From the NCBI RefSeq assembly GCF_016772475.1, contig NZ_CP068595.1, positions 3,038,001 to 3,102,000 on the forward strand: a DNA stretch of 64,000 nucleotides, written 5' to 3'. This stretch comes from Paenibacillus sonchi (GTDB taxonomy: Bacteria > Bacillota > Bacilli > Paenibacillales > Paenibacillaceae). Made by a program: the position numbers and the translations under genes. Below are positions 7,747-51,852 of the stretch, piece after piece. A model generated the notes under the pieces. That model searched no databases. It was not told the origin of the DNA and was given only the letters and a program-made list of their open reading frames with translations. Positions within the stretch are counted from its first letter, which is position 1. Every line of letters begins with the position of its first letter.

Positions 7747-8404
7747 TTGCCCTCGGGCTGTTTGTGGCCGGCCTTGCGCTGACCTCAGCGCTGAAGGACC
7801 GCCATTATATGCTGCTCAGCCTTGTGCTGCTGGCGGTAGCCCTGCTGCCGCTGTTCATCCGTCTGGAGCGGCGTCCGCTTGAATCCAGAGAGCTGGTGCT
7901 GCTGGCGGTGCTGTCCGCTGTCGCTGCGGTCAGCCGGATTCCTTTTGCCGCCTTGCCCAGTGTGAAGCCGGTATCGGCCATTGTTATTCTTTCGGCTTAT
8001 GTTTTTGGGGCGGAAGCCGGGTTCATCATCGGCGCGGTGGCCGCGCTGGTGTCCAATATTTACTTTGGCCAGGGGCCCTGGACGCCTTGGCAAATGTTCG
8101 CCTGGGGCATGGTCGGTCTGACCGCTGGCTGGCTGCGGAATACCTGGTGGATGAAAAAAAGGGCGGAATGCTTGCATTCGGCTTTGTCTGGGGGTTTTTG
8201 TTCGGCTGGATTATGAATATCTGGTATCTGATCAGCCTGCCGGATGCGTTCAGCTGGGGGCTTGTGGCTGCCGCATATGCGTCAAGCTTTTATCTCGACC
8301 TCGCCCATGCCTTGTCCAATGTCTTTTTCATGGCTGTTCTGGCCGGAGGCTGGACCAAAGTGCTGAAGCGGTTCCGCAAAAAATACGGCCTGCTGCAGGA
8401 GTGA
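7719..8404 (+). CDS. ECF transporter S component, probably for cobalamin (frame broken at an A7 run)
   Basis: GTG start at 7719 with GAGGATG about 10 nt upstream. The frame ends early after WWMKK unless one A is added to the run 8154-8160; the restored protein has about 228 residues and six or so membrane segments, continuing with GGMLAFGFVWGF. The central motif NIYFGQGPWTPWQM resembles the CbrT/CblT-like group of S components, known or predicted to bind cobalamin. As S components decide substrate, the cobalamin call rests on this resemblance and on the DUF4430 neighbours. No corrinoid riboswitch is visible inside the window; the upstream end of the cluster is not included. 8405-8576 contains only AT-rich sequence. 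Confidence 0.75.
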
Positions 8405-43808: not shown

Positions 43809-45707
43809 ATGAAGTTGCCATCAATGAAGGCAGCCGCAGCGATATTCATGCTGTTTCTGCTGATTTCCATAGTGCCTATCGGGATCGCAGTGCAATGGGG
43901 CGGCGGGGCAGGATTTTCTATACCGGACTGGGAACTGAAATGGGAGACTTCAGACGTATGCGATCCTGCGGCAGCAGCTGAAGCCCCTGACAGCGAATGG
44001 GTGCAAGCAGACATGGATTCAGTGCGGCCTGCGGCTCCGGCAGATGCTTCCGCAGTCTGGTTCCGTTTTCCCCTCCCGTTAACGGAAGAGCGCAACCCGG
44101 CCCTGTTGATTAATAAAGTCACCGGACATAACCTCAGGGCCTATGCGGATCATAAGCTTATCTATGAGTCGCAGGATTTGATGAATTATGATGAAAGAAA
44201 AGTGCTGATCCCCTTGTCCGGGACGGAGGGGCATTCCTGGTTATATCTATGGAGCAGCGGAGACGGACAGGGCTTTGGAATTGAAGGGGAAATCACGGCA
44301 GGGAACTACGGGAAGCTGCTGGAGTATTATGTAAAGCAAAATTTGCCGGATATGGTGATTGGTGCGGCATTTCTATTTGTAGGTGCGGCACTTATGGGCT
44401 GCTTGCTGTTTCTCAAGCTGGACTTTTTCAAAGGCGGTTTTTTTCTTGTCCTGGTTATCGTATCCTTCGGGGTTCTGTTCATCACCTATTCACCGTTTCT
44501 GCCGGTTATTCTACATATCCCGGACCACTGGACCCAGACCTGCTTTGATCTGGCATTATTTACATTGCTGCCGTCGTTTACGATCTACTTTGAGCAGATT
44601 TTTGGCGCAGGCAAGCACAGGGTAATCACAAAGCTGCGCAAATTCCAACTGGGTTATTCGTTGTTCTGTCTGGTATTTCTCATTGTCAATGCTATGCTGT
44701 CTTACCGCCTGGACGGGCTGTATAGAATCGCTACCGTTGATTTTCTGGGCCTCCTGATGATAGCGCAGTTCATCTATTTACTGTTCGTGACGCTCGGAGC
44801 TGCGTTCAAAGGCAATCGGGATGCCGTCATCTTTTCGGCCGGATTCTCTGTTTTTGCCTTATTGTCATTAACTGAGCTGATTCTCTACTACGCCAACAAC
44901 AGCTACCACTTGCAATGGTGGAAGTGGGGAGTGATTGCGTTCGTGGCTTCGCTTATTCTCATTTTGGGCAGGAGATTTGCAGGCAATCATGAGCAGGTGC
45001 TCGAATATTCCCGTGATCTGGAGAAATTCAATGACGACCTGCAGCGGTCTGAGAAAATGGAGATCATCAGCGAGCTCGCTGCTTCGGTGGCCCATGAGGT
45101 GCGCAATCCCCTGCAGGTGACCCGCGGATTCTTACAGATACTGGGGGAACGCTCTGATAAGAAGGAGAAGGAATACCTGCAGATGGCTATGGAGGAGCTC
45201 GACAGGGCCTCGCTCATCATTACGGATTTTTTGACCTTTGCCAAGCCGGGGATGGATACGCTGGACAGATTTGAGGTGGCGGAGGAGCTGCGGCATGTCT
45301 CCGGCGTTCTGGTGCCGCTGGCCCATCTGCAAGGGGGGACCATTGAGCTTAACCTGGAGAGCGGGCTTCAGGTGCTCGGCAGCACCTCCAAGTTCAAACA
45401 GGCTTTTATCAATCTGATCAAAAATGCTATTGAATCCCTGGAAGAAGATGGACAAATAACGGTTGCCGCCTGGAGATCGGGAGAGCACATCATCATCAGT
45501 GTCCGGGATAACGGGGAAGGGATGAAGATGAGCGAGCTGGCGCATCTGGGCGAGCCTTACTATTCGAATAAAAAGAAGGGAACAGGCCTTGGACTTATGG
45601 TTACGTTCCGGATTATTGAAGCAATGAACGGTTCCATTCAGTTTCAGAGCAGAAAGGGAGAAGGCACTGAGGTTATTGTGAAATTACCATCAGCCGCAAA
45701 AAAATAG
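43809..45707 (+). CDS. Membrane histidine kinase, sporulation-kinase-like (first of a tandem pair)
   Basis: The 632-residue protein has a signal/anchor helix, an extracytoplasmic domain (about 30-175), seven membrane helices (about 182-400), a short coiled coil, a HisKA domain with His429 in VAHEVRNPLQ, and an ATPase domain with INLIKNAIES (N box), RDNGEGM (G1) and GTGLGLMV (G2). The dimerisation motif HEVRNPLQVTRGFLQ is that of sporulation kinases feeding Spo0F. No response regulator gene adjoins it. The extracytoplasmic plus 7TM layout resembles 7TMR-DISM receptors, so a soluble ligand is likely. The next gene is a paralogue. Confidence 0.88.
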   Translation: MKLPSMKAAAAIFMLFLLISIVPIGIAVQWGGGAGFSIPDWELKWETSDVCDPAAAAEAPDSEWVQADMDSVRPAAPADASAVWFRFPLPLTEERNPALLINKVTGHNLRAYADHKLIYESQDLMNYDERKVLIPLSGTEGHSWLYLWSSGDGQGFGIEGEITAGNYGKLLEYYVKQNLPDMVIGAAFLFVGAALMGCLLFLKLDFFKGGFFLVLVIVSFGVLFITYSPFLPVILHIPDHWTQTCFDLALFTLLPSFTIYFEQIFGAGKHRVITKLRKFQLGYSLFCLVFLIVNAMLSYRLDGLYRIATVDFLGLLMIAQFIYLLFVTLGAAFKGNRDAVIFSAGFSVFALLSLTELILYYANNSYHLQWWKWGVIAFVASLILILGRRFAGNHEQVLEYSRDLEKFNDDLQRSEKMEIISELAASVAHEVRNPLQVTRGFLQILGERSDKKEKEYLQMAMEELDRASLIITDFLTFAKPGMDTLDRFEVAEELRHVSGVLVPLAHLQGGTIELNLESGLQVLGSTSKFKQAFINLIKNAIESLEEDGQITVAAWRSGEHIIISVRDNGEGMKMSELAHLGEPYYSNKKKGTGLGLMVTFRIIEAMNGSIQFQSRKGEGTEVIVKLPSAAKK

Positions 45708-45814: not shown

Positions 45815-47729
45815 ATGCGCTTGTTCGCTAAAATTCTACATTTAACCATAGTTCTATTCGTACTTTGTACGGCCTGTGGCGCGTTCGAGGCCTCGGCAGC
45901 AGGCCGGCACGCCCCCGGGAATTGACAAGCTGGCAGATGAAATGGGGAAGTCCGGACGGAGATGCGGGGCAAGAGGTACCGCTTGGAGAGACTCGGGGCT
46001 GGATAAAGGTTGATGCCCGTCAGGGGACACCGGAGCTTCCCAAGGGGATATCCTCTGCATGGACGCGGATAACGCTGCCGGAGAGTCAATATACTTCGCC
46101 TGCGGTTTATATTAAGACGTTATATGCCTTGCATGTTAAGGTGTATGCGGGTGAACGTCTTATCTTTGAAGGCAGCCGCAGTTATATCCATGACAATTAT
46201 TCATTGCTCATTCCGCTGAGTACCGAAGATCAGGGCACAACCCTATATATATGGACGGCAACCCTGCAGGACCGTATCGGAATTAAAGACAGAGTAGCCT
46301 TGGGCGAACACAGCGATCTGCTTAAGGATTATTCGAAAAATGGACTTGCCGATATCATTTTGGGCGGAGCTTTTCTGTTCGTGGCTCTCGTTTTGTTTGT
46401 ATGCACCTTTTACCTGAGCAAGGAGTATTTCTCCATTGCGACCGCACTGTCCCTGGTGATAGCCTCCACGGGAGTCCTGTCCATTACCTATTCTCCTTTT
46501 ACGTACACCTTCTTCAGTTATTTGGGTCCGCTTAGCGTCGTTTTTTTCGATCTGGCGCTGCTGTCGCTGCTCCCCGCATTAACCTTTTTGTTTGAGAAAA
46601 TATTCGGCAGCGGCAAGTTCGCCATCATCCGGCGTTTCCGTAAATTCCAGGCAGCCTATTCACTGTTCTGCATAGCCTGTCTGATCGTGAACACCCTCTC
46701 GGGCAACCGGCTGGTGGAATTTTATTATGTCGTGTCCGCCACCATTGTCGGAGTCATTATGATTCTGCAATTCATCCTGCTGATTGCCTGTGTTATCCTC
46801 TTCTCGCTGCGTGGGAACAAGGATGCAATCACCTTTGCCATCGGTTTCGGAACAGCAGCTTTGACCGGAGCGGTTGAGCTGGCCTGGTATTATTACCGCC
46901 AGGGCAATTATGATCTCATCTACTGGAAGTGGGCGCTGGTGGTGTTCATTCTATCCTTGATCATCATACTGGGACGCCGTCTTGCCCTGAACCATCAGCA
47001 GGTTGTCAAGTATTCACGGGAACTGGAGCTCTTCAATAACGAACTGCAGCGTTCCGAAAAAATGGAAATCATCAGCGAGCTGGCCGCATCTGTTGCGCAT
47101 GAGGTGCGCAATCCGCTTCAGGTGACAAGAGGGTTTCTGCAGCTGTTGAGCGAGAAGTCGGGCGGCGATGAGCGTAAATATTTGTCCATGGCCTTAAGCG
47201 AGCTGGACCGCGCATCCAATATCATTACGGATTTTCTAACGTTCGCCAAACCTGAGTTCGAGAAGATCTCTCAGCTGAGCGTCCTGGAGGAATGCAAGCA
47301 TATCGAGAGCATCATGCTGCCGTTGTGCCACTTGAACGGCGGCAAAATGGTGCTCGAGGTCACCGGGGATTTATGGGTAAAGGGCAATTCCTCCAAATTC
47401 AAGCAGGCTTTTATCAATATGATCAAGAACAGTATTGAGTCGCTCGGGGAGGATGGCAGCATTCATATTAAGGCATATGCCAAAGGAGATAAGGTGTTCA
47501 TTCATATCAAGGATAACGGGGCGGGCATGGACCCGGCAGTTCTGAGCAGGCTAGGTGAGCCTTATTTCTCTTCCAACAAAACAAAAGGAACAGGCCTTGG
47601 GCTAATGGTTACGTTCAGGATCATAGAGGCGATGGGGGAGAGGTCCGCTTCATAAGCAGCAAAGGAGCCGGAACCGAGTCCATTACCATTCTGCCTTTGG
47701 CAGAAGCTCCGGAGGGTTCTGGCTCCTAA
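45815..47729 (+). CDS. Membrane histidine kinase, paralogue of the preceding gene (frame broken twice)
   Basis: ATG 45815 with GAGGTG upstream starts a signal peptide (LHLTIVLFVLCTACGAFEA) that is out of frame with the rest unless one base is added at the C5G3 run 45912-45919; the end also needs one G at 47634-47638, giving GGEVRFISSKGAGTES before a stop at 47727-47729. The restored protein of about 638 residues parallels its neighbour: extracytoplasmic domain, seven helices, VAHEVRNPLQVTRGFLQ, INMIKNSIES, KDNGAGM, GTGLGLMV. The kinase core is highly similar to its neighbour, the sensor part much less. It converges on the RiPP precursor gene, 21 bp away. Confidence 0.85.
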
Positions 47730-47750: not shown

Positions 47751-47990
47751 TTACCAGGTGCTGAGAGTGGTTAAGTCTGTTTTCATTACGCCTGATGCCG
47801 GACTGGGCGGGATAACCAGATAGAACTCATTGGACGCTTCTTCAACGGTTCTGAGGGTAATATTGTCGGGAAGTTCAATGCCTAGCGCTTCTTGGAGGGC
47901 TGCCTTCGGATCTGTGAGTAATCTTTGCTTGAAACCCGGATCTTCCCACGCCTTTTGAATTACTTGATTTCGGAGAATTGCTTCTGACAA
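47751..47990 (-). CDS. NHLP-leader RiPP precursor peptide
   Basis: TTG 47990 is chosen because GGGAAGGGTG on the minus strand ends 6 nt upstream. The 79-residue product starts MSEAILRNQVIQKAWEDPGF and continues with LLTDPKAALQEALGIELP and FYLVIPPSP, the nitrile-hydratase-like leader (NHLP) pattern used by several natural-product precursors. The last 15 residues (ASGVMKTDLTTLSTW) are a plausible core; they have no Cys, five Ser/Thr and a terminal Trp. No GG cleavage motif. It lies 83 bp downstream of a class I isoprenoid synthase-like gene on the same strand. No peptidase, transporter or other modifying enzyme is adjacent. Confidence 0.85.
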   Translation of the reverse strand: MSEAILRNQVIQKAWEDPGFKQRLLTDPKAALQEALGIELPDNITLRTVEEASNEFYLVIPPSPASGVMKTDLTTLSTW

Positions 47991-48073
47991 AATAATCACC
48001 CTTCCCAAAATGGTTATATTTTCCTGATTAGTATAGCATAGCCCACTCTATTAATCTATATCCTATTTCCTAT

Positions 48074-49006
48074 TTACGGATTCATATGTTTGGACAACCA
48101 GTAACCCAGACCCCCGCCTTGCAAAAGCTGTTTTTCCGCTTCGATTGCTGCTGCCATCTGCTGCAGATTCTCGGCCATAAACTGATGGAAAGCGATGAGA
48201 TGAGGAGCGTTCAGGCGGCAGTTTTCAAGCTTTTTGTGATTATCCAACGCCGTACCGGCATACGCAGCAAGCCCCCCTTTTGTAAAGATATAATCCTTGA
48301 CCTGCGCTTTGGTAAGCGCAACCTGATCTATGCCTGTGTGATGTCCGGCCAGGGACAGCAGGCAATTATAGCTTCCTTCAGCAAGGTCTTGCTCCCAATC
48401 CTCGTAGTCGTCCAGCATTTGCAGGGTGAGCAGTACGGTATGGAGAATATCCTCCGCTTCCGGAATCAGAGAAGCATTGCCGGTATGCAGCAGAATAGCT
48501 GTGCTGGTAAGCTTCAGCGGACTGGCTTTGTGGGAGATTTTCAGCCGGTCATTCCTAAAATAATCTCCGTGCGCCTCACCGGCCACACTCTCCGCCCACT
48601 CCAGAATATAGCGGTTAAAGCAGAGCCAGAAAAGGGACTCCGGCGGAAACAGCGGCCTGTACTTGTTCAAGAACTCAACATACAGCAGATTGGCCAGCGG
48701 CAGCATCCGGGATGCGCTGTTATCACTGTCCATCAGATCATCCTGAATGAAGAAATACAGCATGCAAAAAATATTGCCGGCCGACAGCCCGCGGGCTTCA
48801 GCCTCTGTCAGGCCGTAACCGTCCCTGAGCCAGAAGGGGAGCAGATAACTGATATAATTTTTGTGGCTTCCTGTGCTGAAAACGTTAAACTGTTCGAGAT
48901 AGGACAATCCTTGAATGCGGAGAGAATCAGGGAATTCGGAAATCACACTGCTGCAGTCCTGAAATACCAAACGGAGCTCTTTGTCGTAATCATGCAGCCA
49001 ATCCAT
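48074..49006 (-). CDS. Class I isoprenoid synthase-like enzyme paired with the RiPP precursor
   Basis: AGGAGG is followed by ATG at 49009 and 49006; 49006 has the better spacing. The 310-residue, largely helical protein has two Asp-rich motifs: DDLMD at residues 89-93 and DDYED at 199-203, the magnesium-diphosphate sites of trans-prenyl synthases and class I terpene synthases. Length and first motif also recall ComQ, the enzyme that prenylates the Trp of ComX, although ComQ as I recall it lacks the second motif. Being upstream of and co-directional with an NHLP precursor that ends in Trp, it may prenylate that peptide. A stand-alone terpene or prenyl-diphosphate synthase is the alternative. 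Confidence 0.75.
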   Translation of the reverse strand: MDWLHDYDKELRLVFQDCSSVISEFPDSLRIQGLSYLEQFNVFSTGSHKNYISYLLPFWLRDGYGLTEAEARGLSAGNIFCMLYFFIQDDLMDSDNSASRMLPLANLLYVEFLNKYRPLFPPESLFWLCFNRYILEWAESVAGEAHGDYFRNDRLKISHKASPLKLTSTAILLHTGNASLIPEAEDILHTVLLTLQMLDDYEDWEQDLAEGSYNCLLSLAGHHTGIDQVALTKAQVKDYIFTKGGLAAYAGTALDNHKKLENCRLNAPHLIAFHQFMAENLQQMAAAIEAEKQLLQGGGLGYWLSKHMNP

Positions 49007-49137
49007 CATTTTGCCTCCTGTCTTCAATTTTTTTGATCAAGAGAGATATGTATAATGATTAGGTAAAAAATGGTTATTCGTGATGATTATAAGCTTCCTG
49101 GCCGTTGATTTCAATCTTAATTCGGGGGAGATTCGGT

Positions 49138-49452
49138 ATGGAATGGTATACCTTCGGACAAATGCTGATGCATATCCGTCTAGGCCAAAAAGCTGCCACA
49201 CCTGACGGGCGCACAGTGCTGCGCACCTCTGCCGGATTACTCTGGCAAGGGGGCAGGCTGGACGGTGAATTTGTGCAAATTAAAGATTATCTCTTCTCCG
49301 ATATATGGCGGATATTCGAGGATGAAGCGAGCCTGAAAGAAAGCCGTGGCCGGGATATTCATGAGCAAAAGGAACGTGAAATGCTGGCGAATCAATATGA
49401 AGAGCAGCGCTGGAATGAGCTGGAGATTCGGAGAGCCCGGTGGGAAGACTGA
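49138..49452 (+). CDS. Hypothetical protein of 104 residues
   Basis: ATG 49138 follows GGGGGAG with 7 nt spacing. The product starts MEWYTFGQMLMHIRLGQKA and ends with a charged helical region (HEQKEREMLANQYEEQRW). No known motif. It is divergent from the isoprenoid synthase-like gene and precedes an oxidoreductase gene by 68 bp in the same direction, possibly in one transcript. Confidence 0.65.
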   Translation: MEWYTFGQMLMHIRLGQKAATPDGRTVLRTSAGLLWQGGRLDGEFVQIKDYLFSDIWRIFEDEASLKESRGRDIHEQKEREMLANQYEEQRWNELEIRRARWED

Positions 49453-50597: not shown

Positions 50598-50619
50598 GCC
50601 TGCGGGCGCCGTGCGGGGT

Positions 50620-50823
50620 GAAACAACGGCAGGAATGCCGTTGCTGGGGTACTGGCGGCGGGGGCAGGGAGAAACAAAGGCAGGAATGCCGTTGCAGGGG
50701 CGCTGGTGTCGGGGGCAGGGAGAAACAACGGCAGGAATGCCGTTGCAGGGGTGCTGGTGGAGGCAGCGGGATGAAATAAAGGCAGAAATGCCGTAGTTGG
50801 GGCGCCGGTGGCGACCTCGGGGT
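50620..50823. repeat. Tandem 51-bp repeats, family B, four units
   Basis: Units start at 50620, 50671, 50722 and 50773, exactly 51 bp apart. Each begins GAAA(C/T)AA and carries the palindrome CAACGGCAGGAATGCCGTTG (8-bp arms) or a one-mismatch variant, followed by a GC-rich spacer. It begins 22 bp after the oxidoreductase stop. Confidence 0.9.
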
Positions 50824-50880
50824 TTTGGCTGATCTTACTTACTATATGCCCCTCATTTCAGCCGGAAATCCATTTGAGAC

Positions 50881-51441
50881 GAAATGAGAGGTACTTATAC
50901 CTCAGATTTGCCCGATTGGTCAGTGTGGTGAGAAATAAGAGGTATATATACCTCACATTTGAGCAATTGGTCAGTTTGGTGAGAAATGAGAGGTACTTAT
51001 ACCTCAGATTTGCGCGATTTGCCAGTGTGGGGAGAAATGAAAGGTACATATACCTCAGATTTGCGCGATTGGCCAGTGTGGGGAGAAATGAAAGGTACAT
51101 ATACCTCAGATTTGCGCAATTGGCCAGTGTGGTGAGAAATGAGAGGTACTTATACCTCAGATTTGCGCAATTGGCCAGTGTGGTGAGAAATGAGAGGTAC
51201 TTATACCTCACATTTGCGCGATAGGCCAGTTTGGGGAGAAATAAGAGGTATTTATACCTCACATTTGCGCGATAGGCCAGTGTGGTGAGAAATGAGAGGT
51301 ACTTATACCTCACATTTGCGCGATAGGCCAGTGTGGTGAGAAATGAGAGGTACTTATACCTCACATTTGTGCGATTGGCCAGTTTGCGGCGAAATGAGAG
51401 GTACTTACACCTCACATTTGGGCAATTGGCCAGTTGAAGGC
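50881..51441. repeat. Tandem 51-bp repeats, family A, eleven units
   Basis: Eleven units of exactly 51 bp start at 50881 and repeat to 51391. Consensus start GAAATGAGAGGTACTTATAC, then CTCAGATTTGCGCGATTGG and CCAGTGTGGTGA. Each has a 6-bp-arm palindrome GAGGTA-nnnn-TACCTC; the second unit has the continuous palindrome GAGGTATATATACCTC. As 51 is a multiple of three, both strands stay open over long stretches, but no ribosome binding site precedes them. Families B and A are unrelated in sequence but share unit length and layout. Confidence 0.95.
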
Positions 51442-51546
51442 ACACTGTGATAGTAAGCGGAGTTCTACAAGAAACTGGATTTTTGACAGTTCAGGCTTCA
51501 GAATAAGGGGGGCCTAATCGAAGAGGGCCGGAGGAGGCAACGAGAT

Positions 51547-51852
51547 GAAACAACGGCAAAAATGCCGTTGTTATGGTGCCGCCGGAGGCAACGGGATGAA
51601 ACAACGGCAAAAATGCCGTTGTTATGGTGCCGCCGGAGGCAACGGGATGAAACAACGGCAAAAATGCCGTTGTTATGGTGCCGGCGGAGGCAACGGGATG
51701 AAACAACGGCAGAAATGCCGTTGTTAGAGCGCCGCCGGAGGCAAAGAGATGAAACAACGGCAGAAATGCCGTTGTTGGGGCGCCGGCGGAGGCAACGGGA
51801 TGAAACAACGGCAGAAATACCGTTGTTGGGGCGCCGCCGGAGGCATAGGGAA
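51547..51852. repeat. Tandem 51-bp repeats, family B, six units
   Basis: Units start at 51547, 51598, 51649, 51700, 51751 and 51802. Palindrome CAACGGCAAAAATGCCGTTG (or CAGAAATGCCG) in each, spacer ending GGAGGCAACGGGAT. These units match those at 50620-50823, so family B brackets family A. 51442-51546 is unassigned single-copy sequence. Confidence 0.93.

Follow-up and report, generated by a model that had tools for sequence, protein, structure and literature searches.

A palQ-palX locus of Paenibacillus sonchi and its convergent kinase genes: a candidate prenylated peptide signal for a sporulation-class kinase

Introduction

What does an enzyme resembling isoprenoid synthases do beside a small gene whose product carries an NHLP leader and ends in tryptophan? 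The question is raised by a locus in a 64,000-nucleotide stretch of Paenibacillus sonchi DNA (contig NZ_CP068595.1, positions 3,038,001 to 3,102,000), referred to below as the window and used for all coordinates. In the ComQ/ComX systems, an enzyme of the isoprenoid-synthase fold prenylates a tryptophan of the peptide, and a membrane histidine kinase is encoded beside the peptide gene. To our knowledge, few of the signals read by the orphan kinases of sporulation have been identified. Where most genomes of a family encode a candidate ligand next to such a kinase, the question of kinase input becomes testable and, if the candidate is correct, Paenibacillus would possess a pheromone like ComX but with a receptor of another kind.

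A preliminary description of the window had proposed that the enzyme prenylates the peptide to give a pheromone-like lipopeptide, had stated that no described system joins an NHLP leader to a ComQ-like enzyme, and had listed the receptor as missing. The second of these statements has been overtaken by the PalQ/PalX pair of Paenibacillus alvei (PMC10853753). The third does not hold, as two histidine kinase genes, here called HK1 and HK2, lie on the opposite strand next to the gene for the peptide.

Results

The enzyme and precursor genes

The features of the locus are as follows.

43809..45707, plus strand: HK1, distal PalP-type histidine kinase (extracellular domain, 7TM region, HisKA, HATPase)
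45865..47655, plus strand: HK2, proximal PalP-type histidine kinase, convergent with palX
47751..47990, minus strand: palX homologue, NHLP-leader precursor of 79 aa with C-terminal Trp (TIGR03793)
47754..47777, minus strand: predicted 8-residue core DLTTLSTW, placed at the P. alvei cleavage position T72/D73
48074..49009 (stop included), minus strand: palQ homologue, 311 aa (open reading frame, AlphaFold, Foldseek, homology)
48398..48412, minus strand: second Asp-rich motif DDYED, residues 200-204, with Q197 just before it
48728..48742, minus strand: first Asp-rich motif DDLMD, residues 90-94, with D90 and D94 invariant in 47 homologues

The open reading frames, the TIGR03793 match and the predicted fold bear out the basic observation of an isoprenoid-synthase-like enzyme with DDLMD and DDYED motifs followed by an NHLP peptide ending in Trp. 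The enzyme is 311 aa long when read from the first of two adjacent ATG codons and 310 aa from the second. It has no Pfam or NCBIfam match above cut-off, and no sequence relative was found in the PDB. Its AlphaFold model (pLDDT 93.5) matched prenyl diphosphate synthases in Foldseek with probability 1.00 (two matches had E below 0.001, the better of them 4.8e-4), and it is 40% identical to the enzyme of the PalQ locus on P. alvei contig AMBZ01000001. An alignment of 47 homologues, taken from the 120 listed of 225 matches, showed D90, D94, Q197, D200, D201 and D204 to be invariant; Q197, D200 and D204 carry the same numbers in P. alvei, while D89/D93 of the latter correspond to D90/D94 here. Conservation of the second motif is by itself no proof of a catalytic role, since the D200A/D204A double mutant of P. 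alvei PalQ was still active in an endpoint assay, according to the accessible text of PMC10853753. Public records name the homologues "class 1 isoprenoid biosynthesis enzyme" or "terpene synthase". We predict that the product of 48074..49009 is an enzyme of the class I isoprenoid-synthase fold acting as a Trp C3 prenyltransferase.

The palX homologue lies 83 bp past the end of palQ on the same strand. We read its start as the TTG at 47990; a GTG at 47999 and a TTG at 48008 are also in frame. The leader scores 68.3 bits against TIGR03793 (leader_NHLP; cut-off 50.9, E 3.8e-19), and this is the sole NHLP match in the 7.78-Mb genome. The peptide ends in ...SGVMKTDLTTLSTW. Placed from the cleavage position of the P. 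alvei peptide, the core is probably DLTTLSTW, which is not cationic. Among the open reading frames listed around the locus, as named by eye, none was recognised as an immunity or export gene.

Comparison with the P. alvei system

The chemistry of the pair is not new, since the pairing is described for P. alvei in PMC10853753 (2023). In the accessible text of that paper, the NHLP precursor PalX, with its conserved C-terminal Trp, is paired with PalQ, an enzyme of the isoprenoid-synthase fold that prenylates C3 of the indole of that Trp in vitro, accepts C5, C10 and C15 donors and yields a pyrroloindole. The leader aids the reaction but is dispensable, and alanines placed after the Trp abolished activity. 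Cell lysate cuts PalX at T72/D73, leaving DNVRRFFW. The histidine kinase gene palP is given as a further member of the cluster, which the authors describe as conserved across various Paenibacillus. A 2026 review (PMC13290415) groups PalQ with trans-IDS-like Trp prenyltransferases; neither PalX nor PalP turned up when the main text of the review was searched for these terms. The text of PMC10853753 that was accessible, together with related titles and the beginnings of abstracts, yielded no statement of a role for prenylated PalX.

The P. sonchi locus shares with that of P. alvei the NHLP precursor ending in Trp and adjoining the enzyme gene, the isoprenoid-synthase-fold enzyme with its conserved Asp and Gln residues, and the histidine kinase gene in the cluster. 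The AMBZ01000001 contig of PMC10853753 was recovered and shows the order palQ, palX, convergent kinase. The two systems differ in the core (probably DLTTLSTW here, DNVRRFFW there) and in the number of kinases, two in tandem here against one there. Prenylation at C3 of the C-terminal Trp was shown for P. alvei and is predicted, by analogy, for the window pair.

In the AMBZ01000001 copy (P. alvei DSM 29, about positions 7980-8300 of the locus), which is a draft contig, the tail of palX switches frame within a T-run, with the result that DNVRRFFW, the core given in the paper, cannot be read in one frame.

Spread of palQ and palX

With the window PalQ as query (E <= 1e-5), homologues were found in 326 of 394 Paenibacillaceae genomes. 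An alignment search also detected members outside the Paenibacillaceae, in three more families of the order (total, 154 of 246 genomes). At E <= 0.001, 337 of the 394 genomes have an NHLP match, among them every one of the 326 with palQ, though the match is not always adjacent to palQ; the enzyme is thus not regularly found without an NHLP gene. Gene order was followed in 160 regions from 159 genomes, a set biased towards good matches since its members were chosen among the palQ or NHLP sites listed. The 157 regions with palQ include 156 with palX, the remaining one (L170) having no recognised palX. A second set of 80 named loci, overlapping in species with the first, has palX beside palQ in 78 and the palX-kinase arrangement in 74; of the two others, L056 is truncated by a contig end, and no palX was found in L077. 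Its presence beside palQ in 78 of 80 loci indicates that the enzyme-peptide pair is no chance event.

Conservation of the tail Trp, on which the prenylated-peptide proposal depended, held up as well: among 170 palX-type reading frames of the 160-region set, Trp is the last residue or lies within three residues of the end in 168. The exceptions are the P. alvei copy, with its change of frame in the tail, and one reading frame of L241. In 101 of the 168 precursors Trp comes last; it is followed by one residue in 57, by two in nine and by three in one. The 67 extended tails (for example L065, L070, L085, L104 and L173-L188) conflict with the report that P. alvei PalQ strictly needs its Trp at the C-terminus: either trimming precedes prenylation, or the PalQ enzymes concerned tolerate extra residues.

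One region, L216, has five consecutive palX genes ahead of one kinase, with three different-looking tail types (NVRKYxW plus one residue, and variants).

Two convergent kinases of the PalP type

HK1 and HK2 are 47% identical over 574 aa. HK1 consists of an N-terminal hydrophobic segment, an extracellular domain, a 7TM region and then HisKA and HATPase domains; the 7TM region was read from the alignment, its PF07695 match falling just under the cut-off. A search of the genome with the sensor part of HK1 gave two matches, HK1 itself and HK2, so that this sensor is confined to the locus. Compared with three close relatives (L265, L266 and L032), HK2 shows single-base gaps near 45912 and 47634, which put its signal segment and its last residues in other frames. 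The gaps may reflect assembly error or decay, and the kinase is perhaps broken in this strain.

In 153 of the 157 palQ regions, the gene directly after palX is a convergent kinase carrying this same sensor. L130, L137 and L138 have that kinase on the opposite side of palQ, and palX and kinase are still convergent in three regions with no palQ in view (L195, L199 and L200). A model built from 29 sensors matched 361 of the 394 genomes, comprising all 326 with palQ and 35 of the 68 without; four of these 35 have an NHLP match. In all eight of the 35 that were inspected (L306-L313), the kinase stands without palX and palQ within a 6-kb stretch. In L309 its right-hand neighbours, judged by eye, are the same as in the window, a Gfo/Idh-type and a hexosaminidase-type gene. 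Receiver-only genomes are thus real. They may be listeners, or their kinase may respond to another input. The 35 count against a strict palQ-kinase pair.

Beside the kinase of the palQ-less L312 there is a reading frame resembling, by eye, a 103-aa one of the window (49141-49449, plus strand), which is divergent from palQ and has no Pfam or NCBIfam match.

Do peptide and receptor travel together?

Four loci (L174, L178, L179 and L233) carry palX-palP twice. In the sensor tree their four second receptors, whose peptides have tails in ...AAWQ or ...SAWQ, fall into one clade of 12 rows (SH-aLRT 99) that also holds receptors of other species paired with the same tail type, and their first receptors lie outside it. 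This pattern fits the inheritance of peptide-receptor cassettes, which is not in itself proof of binding. Mapped on the tree of 47 receptors, tail type requires six changes against 14.6 in shuffles, none of 500 shuffles giving as few. For 39 single-cassette loci the numbers are five changes on the sensor tree and seven on the palQ tree, so common descent may account for most of the tail-type signal. Evidence for pairing as such comes only from the double-cassette loci, and with L178 and L179 being near copies these amount to about three independent cases.

Within PalP, sequence varies much more in the sensor part than in the kinase part (mean identity 0.33 and 0.63, respectively; core 0.23, palQ 0.40). 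In partial Mantel tests on 197 non-identical pairs, core and sensor correlate at 0.25 (p 0.001) given kinase part and PalQ, core and PalQ show no correlation (0.02), and core and kinase part give 0.13. Leader and sensor correlate at 0.37, leader and PalQ at 0.16. Since core-kinase part, leader-sensor and leader-PalQ are correlated too, these tests were not used as evidence of binding.

Relationship to sporulation kinases

The best PDB match of the HK1 catalytic part is Geobacillus sporulation kinase B (3d36; 187 bits, the next match having 110). To place this likeness within the genome, the 30 best-matching of 57 kinase matches were surveyed with stretches of about 3.7 kb. Six score at least 116 against KinB, and none of the six has a response regulator in its stretch; the other 24 score at most 87, and in 23 of them a response regulator is adjacent or in the same reading frame. 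The stretches of HK1 and HK2 contain no response regulator, the nearest one found being about 8 kb from palQ.

The HisKA specificity residues point the same way. For KinA to KinE of B. subtilis they are given in the accessible text of PMC6136694 as TAGFQL, TVGFQL, TSGFQI, TGGFQL and TAGFQL. Against KinB (TVGFQL), HK1 (QVGFQI) agrees at four of six positions and HK2 (QVGFQL) at five; four other orphan kinases score five to six, and the 23 others with a readable motif score at most three. Read with the His as anchor, 186 of the 194 PalP proteins with the HE.RNP motif have QVGFQ followed by L, I or V; the HE.RNP motif is absent from three of 197.

Gene order provides a link to P. polymyxa, whose strain E681 has five kinases with gene numbers 99, 689, 1038, 1377 and 3851 (PMC7538429, in the part available). 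At a threshold of E 1e-28, set in this analysis, exactly five kinases pass in each of eight genomes of a single genus. In the four unrotated genomes of this group, kinase positions are linear with the E681 gene numbers (r >= 0.9998), and PalP lands at 1038 on the line, within 4 to 33 genes. Random positions equalled the fit for G142 in 28 of 200000 draws. For L191, one of these genomes, PalP shares 91% identity with a protein named as from P. polymyxa and 96% with one from P. terrae. We infer from gene order, not from the sequence of Kin1038, that PalP is the counterpart of that kinase. Kin1038 partly restored sporulation of a B. subtilis kinA kinB mutant, and the rescue was stronger when Spo0A came from P. 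polymyxa, which was taken to suggest a direct transfer to Spo0A (PMC6429003, accessible text). These reports bear on PalP only if gene order identifies Kin1038 correctly. Membrane-localised Spo0B was found in 92% of the Paenibacillus genomes surveyed in PMC12826061, again from the text available. Here, SPOB_a matched above cut-off in a 256-aa reading frame, with a second match in one of 451 aa; it is weak support for a Spo0B, since the same model matches five of 14 control genomes.

With the KinB-class orphan kinases and Kin1038, as described in the accessible parts of PMC6136694, PMC6429003 and PMC7538429, PalP thus shares a KinB-like catalytic part, orphan status, four to five of the six KinB specificity residues and, for Kin1038, the place in the gene order. 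It differs from them in its linkage to a lipopeptide biosynthesis pair and in its first specificity residue, Q rather than T. By its likeness to orphan sporulation kinases of the Spo0F type, PalP may pass phosphate to Spo0F or Spo0A. The kinase lines of evidence agree on a sporulation class, and they leave PalX a candidate ligand.

Discussion

The comparisons made above suggest the following sequence of events. PalX would be made with its NHLP leader, which would help docking on PalQ; PalQ would transfer an isoprenyl group (C5 to C15, GPP or FPP being likely in the cell) to C3 of the Trp indole; the prenylated C-terminal Trp would close to a pyrroloindole; and a general protease would free a short core, probably DLTTLSTW. 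By homology to P. alvei, these steps very probably take place here too. The convergent 7TM kinase PalP would then be the intended sensor of the prenylated peptide, a step that we regard as likely. PalP, as an orphan kinase of the KinB class, could in turn feed Spo0F or Spo0A, letting the peptide tune entry into sporulation; this last step is possible, falling somewhat short of probable. Leaving sporulation aside, prenylation combined with a role of the peptide as signal for the adjacent kinase is a reading that we hold to be probably correct. The complete picture, a near-core circuit of the Paenibacillaceae in which prenylated PalX is the ligand of a 7TM KinB-class kinase serving as a Spo0 input, with diversifying cassettes and receiver-only species, is put forward tentatively. 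Of the original proposal, the chemistry has gained firm ground from homology to PalQ/PalX and their in vitro reaction, as given in the accessible text of PMC10853753, and there is now more support for the pheromone role, which we consider plausible. By the literature searched, the enzyme-peptide chemistry was already published for a homologue, and signalling to a sporulation-class kinase is the new, testable part.

Two identities were considered and rejected. The locus shares with ComQ/ComX/ComP/ComA of Bacillus a Trp-prenylating isoprenoid-fold enzyme and a membrane kinase gene beside the peptide gene, but ComQXPA has its four genes on one strand, ComA among them, an internal Trp and a leader of another kind. 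The kinase genes here are on the opposite strand and convergent, with another sensor; no ComA-type response regulator lies beside HK1 or HK2 (stretches of about 3.7 kb); the leader is NHLP and the Trp stands at the very end. Membership was rejected on strand order, ComA and the position of the Trp. A free terpene synthase was set aside on two grounds: no palQ genome lacks an NHLP match, and a homologue has been assayed (PMC10853753, accessible text). For related reasons we consider it most improbable that palQ encodes an ordinary synthase of terpenes or prenyl diphosphates with the NHLP gene as a bystander: the fold of the enzyme, both Asp-rich motifs and the names of its homologues in public records would suit such a synthase, but the NHLP match in 326 of 326 palQ genomes and the prenylation by PalQ of its own peptide argue against it.

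The remaining alternatives concern the use of the peptide and the state of the circuit. PalX could be a prenylated antimicrobial or membrane-active peptide, PalP sensing the peptide or the state of the envelope with no quorum or sporulation role. According to a review, C10 prenylation by PalQ increases the activity of membrane-active peptides (PMC13290415), but occurrence in 326 of 394 genomes and tight convergent pairing with one sensor family look more like core signalling than a patchy bacteriocin, and the predicted core lacks cationic character; the lack of an immunity or export gene in the list of reading frames is neutral on this point. We judge such a function rather unlikely. It is also unlikely that PalP is a sporulation-type kinase with an unrelated input of its own, to which palX-palQ is merely linked. 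That PalP may have another input is suggested by its retention in 35 of the 68 palQ-less genomes, the eight inspected having neither palX nor palQ nearby; against mere linkage stand the convergent palX-palP order in 153 of 157 palQ regions and in the three with no palQ in view, and the joint duplication of palX and palP in four loci. Finally, the circuit might be decaying in this strain, the proximal kinase HK2 being frame-shifted. Single-base gaps near both ends of HK2 relative to three close relatives would agree with this, but such gaps are also typical of assembly errors, and palQ, palX and HK1 are open; decay therefore appears improbable. The reading that we prefer remains that of a prenylated PalX sensed by PalP.

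In the neighbouring sequence, at about 50600-51800 of the window, overlapping reading frames of short repeated units, RNERYLYLRFARLAS-like for example, are present on both strands. According to the list of reading frames, this stretch is a tandem-repeat segment between two conserved genes.
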